A DNA stretch of 58,443 nt from an uncultured Acidimicrobiales bacterium (GTDB lineage Bacteria; Actinomycetota; Acidimicrobiia; Acidimicrobiales; AC-14), in the NCBI GenBank assembly GCA_902805665.1, contig CADCTB010000128.1, positions 1-58,443 of the forward strand, in the 5' to 3' direction. The stretch's first letter is position 1. Each line of letters opens with the position of its first letter. The position numbers were made by a program, and so were the translations under genes. Of this stretch, positions 1-2,181 are shown piece after piece. The notes beneath the pieces are model-generated. The model worked only from the letters and a program-made list of their open reading frames with translations. It was not told the origin of the DNA and ran no database searches.

Positions 1-6
1 CGGGGG

Positions 7-633
7 GTGACGGGGCTCGGCGACCGGCGGCTCTACCTCTGCACCGCGGACCGTCCCGATCTGGCCGAGTTCCTGGTCGCCTGTATCCGCGGCGGGGTCG
101 ACATCGTCCAGCTGCGGGACAAGCAGCTCGACGCCCGTCCCCTGCTGGCCCGGGCCCGCGTGGCCGCCCAGGTCTGTGCCCACCACGGCGTGCCGTTCGT
201 CCTCAATGACCGCCCCGACCTGGCCCTGGAATGCGGCGCCGACGGCGTCCATGTGGGCCAGGACGACGCTCCCGCCTCGCTGGCCCGCCGCATACTCGGG
301 CCCGGGGCCATCGTGGGGCTGTCGACCCACGCGCCGGCCGAGCTCGACGCCTCCCCGACGGAGCCGGCCGACTACGTGTCCGTGGGGCCGGTGTCGGCCA
401 CGCCGACCAAGCCGGGGCGACCGGGCACCGGGCTCGAGTACCTGCGCTACGCGGCCCGCACCGCCACCCGACCGTGGTTCGTCACGGGCGGGGTCACCCC
501 GGACACGCTCCCCGCCATGCTCGACGCAGGCGCCCGCCGGTTCGTGGTGGTGCGCTGGCTCACGGAGTCGGCCGACCCGCTGCAGGCGGCCCGGGCCCTG
601 CGAGAGGTGATCGACGGGACGCCCCTCTCCTGA
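7..633 (+). CDS. thiE: Thiamine-phosphate synthase ThiE
   Basis: Couples the pyrimidine (HMP-PP) and thiazole (THZ-P) phosphates into thiamine monophosphate in the cytosol. The 208-residue length fits the family. Visible motifs are QLRDK (35-39) and NDRPD (67-71) around the pyrimidine site, VHVGQDD (81-87) for pyrophosphate and magnesium binding, TPTKPG (132-137) and a late VTGGV phosphate loop. The start is GTG at base 7. The window begins only six bases upstream, so the ribosome-binding site cannot be judged and a slightly earlier start is possible. It converges on the hydrolase that follows. No other thiamine gene is in view. Confidence 0.93.
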   Translation: MTGLGDRRLYLCTADRPDLAEFLVACIRGGVDIVQLRDKQLDARPLLARARVAAQVCAHHGVPFVLNDRPDLALECGADGVHVGQDDAPASLARRILGPGAIVGLSTHAPAELDASPTEPADYVSVGPVSATPTKPGRPGTGLEYLRYAARTATRPWFVTGGVTPDTLPAMLDAGARRFVVVRWLTESADPLQAARALREVIDGTPLS

Positions 634-655: not shown

Positions 656-1411
656 TCAGGAACCGGTCTGGCGCTCCATCCAGCCCAGGAGCAGGGCGAC
701 GGCGCGGGGGTCGTGCCGGAGCCGGTGCCCGGCTTCGGAGAGCACCCGTAGCTCGACGGCGTCGCCCGCCGCATCGGTGAGCACCCGGGCGTCGTCGAGG
801 GGCACGACGTCGTCGTCGGCGCCGTGGATGACCAGGATCGGGCGGGGAGGGACCTTGGCGATCAGCGCGGTGGGGCGGATCTCGCGGAGCTCCCGGCTCC
901 AGGCCTCGAAGTCGAGCGGGAAGTCGCGGTCCTCGATCACGCCGATCGAGCGGGCGTGCTCGAGGAACCTCTCCGGGTCGCCCGCCCAGTCGCTGAAGTC
1001 GGCCCGGGCCGACATGGTGGCCACGCCGCGGACGCGCTCGTCCTCGCCCGCCTCGCACAGGGCGAGCGATCCCCCGGTGCCCGATCCGGCCAGCCACACA
1101 CCGGAGACCCCGCCGGCGGCGAGGAGGTGGTCGATCGCGGCCCGGAGGTCGTCGAGCCAACCGGCGAGGGAGAAGTCACCCTCCGACGTGCCCGTGCCGC
1201 GGAAGTTGAAGGTCATGACGGCCCAGCCGGTGTCGGCGGCCAGCCGCTCGGCCAGCTCGGGATACGTCTGGGCCGAGGTCGCCGCTCCGCCGGGACCGGC
1301 CGGGAACCCGTGACAGAGCACCAGCCCGGGGACGGCCCCCGACGCCGGCGGCGCCGGCCGGGCCAGGTACCCCGACAAGCGAAGGCCGCCGGACTCGATC
1401 ACGCACTGCAC
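656..1411 (-). CDS. Alpha/beta-hydrolase family protein with atypical nucleophile elbow
   Basis: A 251-residue alpha/beta-hydrolase fold. HGFPAG near residue 34 is the oxyanion strand-loop, HGADDD near 196 carries the acid, and EAGH ending near 229 carries the histidine. The nucleophile elbow reads GSGTGG (about 109-114), so the position that normally holds Ser is Gly and the next residue is Thr. The protein may use another residue or be non-catalytic. I chose GTG 1411 because GGTGGAGG lies eight bases upstream; GTG 1426 gives five more residues but has no ribosome-binding site. It lies downstream of a 310-base structured gap. Substrate unknown. Confidence 0.8.
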   Translation of the reverse strand: MQCVIESGGLRLSGYLARPAPPASGAVPGLVLCHGFPAGPGGAATSAQTYPELAERLAADTGWAVMTFNFRGTGTSEGDFSLAGWLDDLRAAIDHLLAAGGVSGVWLAGSGTGGSLALCEAGEDERVRGVATMSARADFSDWAGDPERFLEHARSIGVIEDRDFPLDFEAWSRELREIRPTALIAKVPPRPILVIHGADDDVVPLDDARVLTDAAGDAVELRVLSEAGHRLRHDPRAVALLLGWMERQTGS

Positions 1412-1464
1412 GGGATTCACCTCCACCGGAACCGTTCGGCTCCGGAGACACAGGACACCAGCGC

Positions 1465-1493
1465 GACAAGGGGGCGCCGAGCGCCCCCTTGTC
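1465..1493. terminator. Perfect 13-bp hairpin, 3-nt loop
   Basis: The arms gacaagggggcgc and gcgcccccttgtc pair perfectly around CGA. Neither side has a long T tract. It lies 54 bases upstream of the hydrolase start on the minus strand and could end a short leader RNA or act as a cruciform. Confidence 0.5.
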
Positions 1494-1615
1494 TGGCTTC
1501 AAATTGCTGGAAAGGAAAACTTGGGGGAACGGACTGCACCAGGAGGGACCAGTTCCCGGACGTTTCCTCCGAGCGGTGACAGCGGGGTTTCCGCTCTACC
1601 CGGTCCAGCTGCCAG

Positions 1616-1660
1616 TTAGCGGGCAGCCACCTCCGAGGTCCCAAAACTACATTCGTTCAG
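1616..1660 (-). CDS. Possible 14-residue leader peptide (CTG start)
   Basis: The frame reads (M)NECSFGTSEVAAR followed by TAA. AGGAGG lies eight bases before the CTG, among the best ribosome-binding sites in the window. The site is embedded in the palindrome aggtggtccacct, so its access could be controlled by folding. One Cys codon is present. No ATG or GTG with comparable spacing exists in this frame; a GTG three codons earlier overlaps the ribosome-binding site. This is a candidate only. Confidence 0.3.
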   Translation of the reverse strand: MNECSFGTSEVAAR

Positions 1661-1737
1661 GTGGACCACCTCCTTTCTTCGGTACGACAATCAAACCACA
1701 AACCGCGCCCTAGATGGCAACAGTTTCGGCCCGTCGT

Positions 1738-2181
1738 CTAGAAGGGATCGGGGCCCCGGTCCTCGACAGGCCCGACCGCCCCGATGTCCTCCAGGTATCC
1801 CATCTGGGCGTCGAGCACGGCGTGGATCTGCGAAGGCGTGTACGGGGAGCCCGCCGCCTCGGCCTTCATCAGCACGAAGTCCACCGTCTCGGCCCCGCTG
1901 ACCACCACCGGATGGTCGGCGTCCGCGGTGTGCCCGTTCGACGACACCCCCTTGATCCGGAAGAACTCGAGGTGCCAGTTGAGGATGCGGCGGACGTCGT
2001 CGGGCGACAGGACGGCGGCCACATCGGGGCCGACGTGGTCGCACACCCAGGCCACCGCGTCCTCGAACTCGAACACCCGGCCGGGCGCCTTGGTGGCCAG
2101 GCGCCGGGCCTCGCGGCCCACCACGATGGCGGCGATGGCGAAGACGGCGGCGACGGCGAGGACGCCGAGGAAGATCCCCAT
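1738..2181 (-). CDS. Uncharacterised membrane-anchored protein
   Basis: I do not recognise this 147-residue protein. Residues 3-22 form one hydrophobic segment (FLGVLAVAAVFAIAAIVVG), followed by a soluble acidic domain rich in Asp and Val with a predicted helical N-terminal part (EDAVAWVCDHVGPDV) and an alpha/beta tail. The topology suggests an N-terminal anchor with a cytoplasmic domain. It starts with ATG 27 bases downstream of the acyl-CoA dehydrogenase stop, so the two are probably co-transcribed. No catalytic motif is visible. Confidence 0.7.
   Translation of the reverse strand: MGIFLGVLAVAAVFAIAAIVVGREARRLATKAPGRVFEFEDAVAWVCDHVGPDVAAVLSPDDVRRILNWHLEFFRIKGVSSNGHTADADHPVVVSGAETVDFVLMKAEAAGSPYTPSQIHAVLDAQMGYLEDIGAVGPVEDRGPDPF

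Follow-up and report, generated by a model that had tools for sequence, protein, structure and literature searches.

What lies in the gap between the minus-strand genes for an alpha/beta hydrolase and a 147-aa protein on this Acidimicrobiales contig, and does its short CTG frame mean anything? The original prediction saw in its layout either leader-peptide attenuation or a structured RNA present in abundance, and recognized no known Rfam consensus. The latter point was mistaken, as an Rfam search across the window (the whole 58,443-nucleotide stretch analyzed) places the minus strand from about 1683 to 1465 in RF02471 (Ms_IGR-5, "Actinobacteria sRNA"), a family already in Rfam before the present analysis. 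The match at 1683–1513 (−) covers the full model (1–184) with 48.9 bits against a cut-off of 45 (E 5.6e-8) and is the single match in the source genome at E ≤ 0.001. Among 60 genomes, namely the source genome and 59 relatives, most of which share its order (presumably Acidimicrobiia), 38 matched at E ≤ 0.001 with one copy each and 15 of the 60 exceeded the curated cut-off. A small RNA gene in its own right, with kinship to an Rfam family about which little is understood, thus appears to occupy the gap. Full-text literature available to us on Ms_IGR-5, IGR-5 or RF02471 describes no function, as far as we found, and IGR-5 is absent from the main text of PMC3828370. The free energy of the predicted fold is unremarkable (z +0.88; 157 of 200 shuffles fold equally well or better), and support for the predicted RNA is comparative, coming from covariation and a conserved frame. 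Features are collected in Table 1.

Table 1 Features of the predicted RNA gene and its flanks in the window.
Feature	Position	Strand	Basis or remark
Predicted RNA gene, RF02471 homolog, about 219 nt	1465..1683	−	Ends inferred from homolog alignment and 3' hairpin
−10-like TTTGAT, upstream of inferred 5' end	1690..1695	−	Read from sequence; does not fit TANNNT
P1 5' strand, CCGA	1679..1682	−	Covariation; four standard pairs in window
SD1, AGAAAGGAGGTGGTCC	1663..1678	−	Can pair with 16S rRNA 3' tail GGATCACCTCCTTTCT, one G-U; tail from relatives
Mini-ORF CTG...TAA, LNECSFGTSEVAAR, 14 codons and stop	1616..1660	−	Homolog frame comparison
Pseudoknot strand, GGGACC	1637..1642	−	Partner P4 loop; alternative partner GGTCC of SD1
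P1 3' strand, TCGG	1633..1636	−	Covariation
P3 5' strand, GGTGGCTGCC	1622..1631	−	With preceding bases, second SD-like GAGGTGG near frame end
P3 3' strand, CGCTGTCACC	1575..1584	−	Alignment pairing
P4 hairpin	1539..1561	−	Loop GGTCCC (1550–1545) is pseudoknot partner; 5 of 6 stem pairs standard in window
13-bp G+C-rich hairpin, presumed 3' end or terminator	1465..1493	−	No T-run; central 27 letters at 1492–1466
Alpha/beta hydrolase, downstream neighbor, outside the RNA	656..1426	−	ORF and Pfam
147-aa protein without Pfam match, upstream neighbor	1738..2181	−	ORF and Pfam

Sequence upstream of the inferred 5' end bears on whether the RNA forms its own transcription unit. TANNNT occupies the corresponding position in 15 of 29 same-order loci (shuffled 3.0); among the matches listed, it does so in 136 of 148 other homologs (shuffled 9.0), a group that also includes same-order loci from the pattern scan. 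A TTG box accompanies it in 123 of those 148 listed homologs (shuffled 21.9), resembling the boxes of the main sigma factor, with no excess in same-order loci (4/29 vs shuffled 5.4). At the other end, the perfect hairpin announced just before the hydrolase was found as a G+C-rich hairpin at 1493–1465, and by eye most of 29 aligned same-order relatives have one at the equivalent place. In four non-actinobacterial loci (L050, L039, L064, L269) the RNA ends, by eye, in a hairpin with a T-run. In the parts available, PMC8079986 and PMC8780764 report family members as transcribed in S. lividans and, as a separate unit, in S. avermitilis; PMC10454040 is a further source on the family as a small RNA in another species.

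Gene order is acyl-CoA dehydrogenase, a protein of ~150 aa, the RNA and the alpha/beta hydrolase both in the window and in L013; the window also holds, at 1–633 (+), a 208-aa ORF that we take to resemble thiamine-phosphate synthase. Among 30 same-order loci, 29 have the downstream same-strand ORF cluster, two tested members of which are Abhydrolase_1, and 23 have that of the upstream 147-aa protein; these clusters were defined by shared family without a Pfam check and include wrong-frame ones. L057 has an aminotransferase class IV gene, the RNA and a convergent THAP4-like gene, the last being convergent in all four loci tested (L041, L057, L079, L155; two labelled mycobacterial). Other homolog loci have different neighbor genes, Pfam having been run on 20 neighbor ORFs. 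A downstream gene of constant class and direction was seen among same-order relatives only.

These arrangements bear directly on leader-peptide attenuation, in which translation of the mini-ORF would decide termination at the 13-bp hairpin ahead of the hydrolase. A short ORF conserved together with its ribosome-binding site is one mark of such a leader, and this locus has it; the genuine ORF, the competing pairings described below and the same-strand cluster downstream in nearly all same-order loci agree with the idea. Against it, non-acidimicrobial homologs have promoter-like boxes, the four non-actinobacterial loci read by eye close with a hairpin and T-run, downstream genes vary by lineage and are convergent in the four loci named, the family has its own transcription unit in S. 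avermitilis in what is available of PMC8780764, and the frame has no run of any single amino acid. Because the next gene is convergent in the tested mycobacterial loci, leader attenuation does not explain the family in general; we consider it quite unlikely here, and possible among same-order relatives only. The original prediction divides: its short frame and its structured-RNA layout are both conserved, in a family whose members are reported to be transcribed, but attenuation of the hydrolase is unsupported as the general function.

We examined the frame in 179 homolog loci (174 distinct sequences), of which 59 came from RF02471 searches (the best 30 of 38 and the best 30 of 57, one shared) and at least 120 from a DNA pattern fixing core letters. 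As first described, a minus-strand AGGAGG, lying inside SD1, is ideally spaced from the frame, with CTG 8 nt downstream of GGAGG. Among the matches listed, a stop codon falls exactly five codons past GAG in 179 of 179 loci, and it is of three kinds (TAG 153, TGA 16, TAA 10). An in-frame ATG, GTG, TTG or CTG lies 7–13 nt past GGAGG in 175 of these 179 listed loci, the exceptions being L171, which lacks a start, and three loci with ATT or ATC only. Counted as distinct sequences among the matches listed, the stop is kept in 174/174 and the start in 170/174. The 59 best-scoring covariance-model loci include 55 with an open frame and standard start, whereas loop shuffles average 10.4 and reach 18 at most; their two other reading frames are open with a start in 1 and 1 of 59. 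CTG is rare as a start codon, and ATG, GTG and TTG alone give open frames in 28 of the 59 best-scoring loci; CTG is the called start in 24 of 30 same-order loci. Frames with a standard start run to 10–22 codons in the homologs.

The pattern extends to more distant samples. In the best 20 loci from each of two further phyla, stops are in place in 40/40 and starts in 37/40, under a scan criterion that accepted any GAGGTG with a stop at the set distance and with two of the 40 already among the 179 (L270 is L050 and L289 is L032). From 20 odd or weak stretches that were fetched, both motifs were found in 10 and the stop was kept in 7 of these; it is not in place in L253, L254 and L257, the standard start is missing though the stop is kept in L249–L251 and L267, and only three (L264–L266) have both. 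L249–L251 (family f68, from a phylum search) carry the SD AAAGGAGGTGATCC and keep the frame and stop; where a start would normally stand, ATA is the sole candidate seen by eye.

Because fixed stops and standard starts recur across homolog loci, the 14-codon CTG frame is, on this comparison, not accidental. The opposite reading, of a non-coding structured RNA whose frame arises by chance, could draw on the sRNA annotation in Rfam, on a fold no better than shuffles and on the distant homologs without a frame or standard start. Yet listed loci with stops of three kinds at one fixed place, and open frames in 55 of the 59 best-scoring loci where shuffling never exceeded 18, make it very improbable, and on these stop and open-frame counts we rejected a purely non-coding RNA with a chance frame.

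The sequence ahead of the frame is predicted to pair extensively with the ribosome. AGAAAGGAGGUGGUCC is a 16-nt complement, with one G-U, of the 16S 3' tail GGAUCACCUCCUUUCU. A tail pattern had no match in the source assembly; the tail GGCTGGATCACCTCCTTTCT is identical in all genomes where the pattern found one (14/60). Among the 59 best-scoring loci, SD1 is pairable with the tail at all of positions 3–16 in 58 and at all 16 in 55. Substitutions at positions 2–16, read from the table for these 59 loci, whose rows were originally found by likeness to the element, keep pairing in 30 cases and break it in 1. SD1 is also the strongest predicted tail pairing (−25.6 kcal/mol) among 20,304 scored 20-nt window stretches, in a scan that scored only stretches with a G-rich core. 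The 14-nt pattern of SD1 is not in itself rare, with 1 site in the window vs 0.15 expected, one held by 15 of 100 shuffles, and 9 sites genome-wide vs 5 for a reversed control. The ribosome-binding site was also said to lie in a palindrome, and AGGTGG-T-CCACCT is indeed present; by eye it is missing from most of 29 aligned same-order homologs. A second SD-like element, GAGGTGG, is conserved ~8 nt before the last sense codon.

Departures from the complement occur. In 8 of the best 20 loci from the phylum of genome G350, an extra A in the SD (GGAGGATG) breaks 16S pairing, and in L308 of the same sample the SD is interrupted by an extra T. The eight extra-A loci (L297–L299, L301, L302, L304, L306, L307) have the SD GGAGGATGGTCC or GGAGGATGATCC, and their peptides are more alike, ending REVTEA. 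For an intramolecular anti-SD, GGACCACCU, complements of at least 9 nt occur in 17 of the 179 listed loci vs 3 of 895 shuffles, and 15 of those 17 are one identical 9-mer; the window has only TCCTTTC (7 nt), and the anti-SD is retained as no more than a lead.

A strong G-rich element in family members that are separately expressed, as reported in the available parts of PMC8079986 and PMC8780764, could also belong to a trans-acting base-pairing sRNA, the exposed element binding C-rich sites in mRNAs and translation being a by-product or a means of control. At positions 2–16, however, nearly all variation in SD1 preserves its complementarity to the 16S tail, and the frame, start and stop are conserved, so that this account strikes us as unlikely.

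Around these elements we recognize helices with compensatory changes. L023 was left out of the homolog alignments, and L023, L174 and L177 were left out of alignment A1 (42 of 45 references). Of the 179 loci, 64 went into alignment A2 and into R1, a 71-position model built here for the 5' part. P1 joins the bases directly before the SD element to those just before and at GAG. Canonical cells number 640 of 712 in 178 of the 179 loci among the matches listed (one was left out), compared with a shuffled mean of 460 and maximum of 497. On the 64-sequence alignment, 95.2% of P1 cells are paired vs 62.9% shuffled, with 80 double changes vs 27.6, and slid controls reach 4.5–51.2%. P1 also pairs in 150 of 160 cells from the samples of two further phyla. 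The 5' strand of P1 is unpaired in Rfam's structure line for RF02471. P3, which overlaps the end of the mini-ORF, pairs GGUGGCUG with CAGYCACC in 94.4% of cells in 42 mostly same-order sequences, and 7 of its 9 counted pairs are standard in the window.

Inside the frame, GGGACC is predicted to form a pseudoknot with the P4 loop, and six standard pairs are available in the window. When a complement was sought within 60 nt after P3, GGAC met GTCC in 129 of 135 testable rows among the matches listed; GTCC is the commonest 4-mer in that 60-nt region, and the best other permutation of its letters reaches 86 rows. Variant strands have matching partners, with GGAT/ATCC in 6/6 (four of which also contain GTCC), CGAC/GTCG in 2/2 and GAAC/GTTC in L005; rows with GGGC have GCCC in 3/4, but GTCC in 4/4. 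L064, L170 and L178 lack an exact partner in that stretch in the register used, and an insertion in L010 puts the pseudoknot out of register. Since the pseudoknot helix is 96.0% paired on the same-order alignment with a double change in one pair only, support for the pseudoknot comes mainly from other lineages. The same GGGACC strand would be used by helix P2, which joins GGUCC of SD1 to GGACC, so pairing with SD1 and the pseudoknot are mutually exclusive. P2 is formable, but it is broken in L005 and no SD-side compensatory change was seen; because the competing pseudoknot has compensating changes, P2 is retained only as a possible alternative.

The structure is conserved among homologs, but most of the 14-residue peptide is not. 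Among 457 non-independent pairs of unique frames differing at one to three loop positions, differences at codon positions 1/2/3 number 367/455/280, and 139 codons are synonymous vs 723 non-synonymous, giving no synonymous excess. Because loop changes are mostly non-synonymous, translation seems to be conserved above the peptide. Start, frame and stop are far better kept than the residues, except for a terminal E-V-[AT]; N-terminal codons are unconstrained, and the C-terminal E-V is constrained at the RNA and protein levels alike. The residue before E varies with the P1 helix (CGT, TGT, CTG, TCG). Since GGTG at the E-V codons was a requirement of the search patterns, the invariance of E-V does not count as independent evidence; GGTG is nonetheless present there in every one of the 59 best-scoring loci.

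Could the micropeptide itself be the product of a dual-function RNA, with its C-terminus [RCSL]-E-V-[ATV]-x-x acting on a partner? E-V occurs in the 179 listed loci and in all 40 taken from the two further phyla, under patterns that required GGTG, and peptides of the Acidobacteriota sample share more residues, several being of the form MK-D-...REVTEA. On the other side, loop codons show no synonymous excess and the residue before E tracks P1 pairing. GAG GTG is moreover invariant at third positions and lies within P3, and constraint on the RNA can therefore explain it. As E-V is also kept as protein, the peptide may have some role, but we regard a functional micropeptide as improbable.

Homologs of RF02471 extend, judging by sequence and predicted structure, beyond Actinomycetota into two further sampled phyla. 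At E ≤ 0.001, R1 finds the RNA in 94 of 198 class genomes and in 134 of 296 genomes across the phylum, the weak matches inspected being those among the 20 fetched stretches. It also matches 37 of 98 genomes in the phylum of G348 (labelled Zixibacteria) and 32 of 149 in that of G350 (labelled Acidobacteria), the G348 and G350 seeds being part of the model. In the phylum of G351 (labelled Deltaproteobacteria) it matches 5 of 118 including the seed; L245 and L246 look genuine there, L248 looks like chance, and L247 is the fifth match. L039 is a homolog from a record labelled Sumerlaeota. All phylum labels are taken from MAG records, and an individual contig may carry a wrong one.

Several single loci deserve mention. 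In L245 and L246 the SD is AAGGAGGTGATCC, the peptides terminate in CEVVSS and CEVVTS, and the pseudoknot, judged by eye, uses different letters (GGTGA/TCACC). L053, labelled Acidobacteriota, has a CTG frame of the same-order type and ORFs in same-order clusters, and because of both its contig may be misbinned. G813 and G279 carry two strong copies of the RNA, and nearly all other matched genomes one. L030, a same-order relative, and L076, labelled Acidimicrobiaceae, are identical over the 703 bases compared, which is why we presume the same-order relatives to be Acidimicrobiia.

Taken as a whole, the RNA is most likely a ribosome-engaging mini-mRNA or sRNA; its action in trans and its purpose are what we infer. 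The fuller statement, that the gap holds a self-contained RF02471-type small RNA gene acting as a structured mini-mRNA with a function in trans, we rate at about an even chance. In this mini-mRNA, the 30S subunit would dock via the SD element and the ribosome would translate the frame. Translation would melt P1, the pseudoknot and the 5' strand of P3, and through this melting the RNA would switch between a folded and a ribosome-engaged state. The second GAGGTGG could hold the terminating ribosome. What is conserved would be the engagement of ribosomes and not the peptide, and the function in trans might be titration of ribosomes or 30S subunits, or sensing of translation capacity, together with control of the RNA's own fate. 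Ribosome-protected reads are reported on the Ms_IGR-5 homologs of M. abscessus and M. smegmatis in the accessible part of PMC4974804, which also cautions that non-coding RNAs show ribosome footprints.

A broader proposal is tentative, and we think it less likely than the first. RF02471, instead of being an actinobacterial sRNA, may be part of a multi-phylum class of ribosome-docking mini-mRNAs, in which a maximal SD captures 30S, translating a frame of 10–22 codons matters in itself whatever the peptide, and a pseudoknot that vies with the SD for one strand lets the RNA report or buffer free ribosomes as a translation-side counterpart of 6S RNA. RF02471 in any case gains a testable anatomy, with a mini-frame, a near-complete complement of the 16S tail, a covarying helix, a pseudoknot and a wider range. 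Should selection bear on translation itself, RF02471 would comprise RNAs whose way of working is ribosome engagement.

Among known systems, the closest is Ms_IGR-5 itself, which the RNA resembles in sequence and structure over the whole model, in being intergenic and in being single copy in the source genome. The differences are that Rfam describes an actinobacterial sRNA, with a structure line that lacks the P1 5' strand pairing and the pseudoknot, and that the mini-ORF goes unmentioned in the available literature on the family, as far as we found. The raiA motif or ModT RNA (RF03072) is likewise bacterial, structured and similar in size, and in C. difficile it has been linked to the stationary-phase transition (PMC11706538), but the portion of that source available describes no mini-ORF for it. 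Identity with raiA/ModT was rejected, with no RF03072 match at E up to 1. Three other Rfam hits at E ≤ 1 all lie far below their own cut-offs, and ARAGORN, searching for a tRNA-like domain and tag frame, found no tmRNA in the window. Leader-peptide attenuators and dual-function sRNAs (SgrS/SgrT, SR1; PMC11133741, from the part available) also place a short frame in a regulatory RNA; unlike them, the RNA here is not tied to one downstream gene and its peptide is mostly unconserved. The M. tuberculosis smORF beside Rv0813c was set aside as a counterpart, being located in the Rv0813c 5'UTR with no link to the present RNA shown in the available text of PMC11133741.

No 6S RNA was matched in Rfam at gathering level or E ≤ 1, and identity with Ms1 was dismissed, IGR-5 (equated by name) and Ms1 being named separately in M. 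smegmatis in what is available of PMC10454040. Ms1 and other 6S-type RNAs are described as engaging RNA polymerase in mycobacteria and Streptomyces (PMC4191392, PMC9130861), and Actinomycetota as exceptional with respect to the otherwise widespread 6S RNA (PMC9130861), in the sections of these papers that we cite. The likeness is that of a small RNA engaging a core machine; here the predicted partner is the 16S tail, not RNA polymerase.
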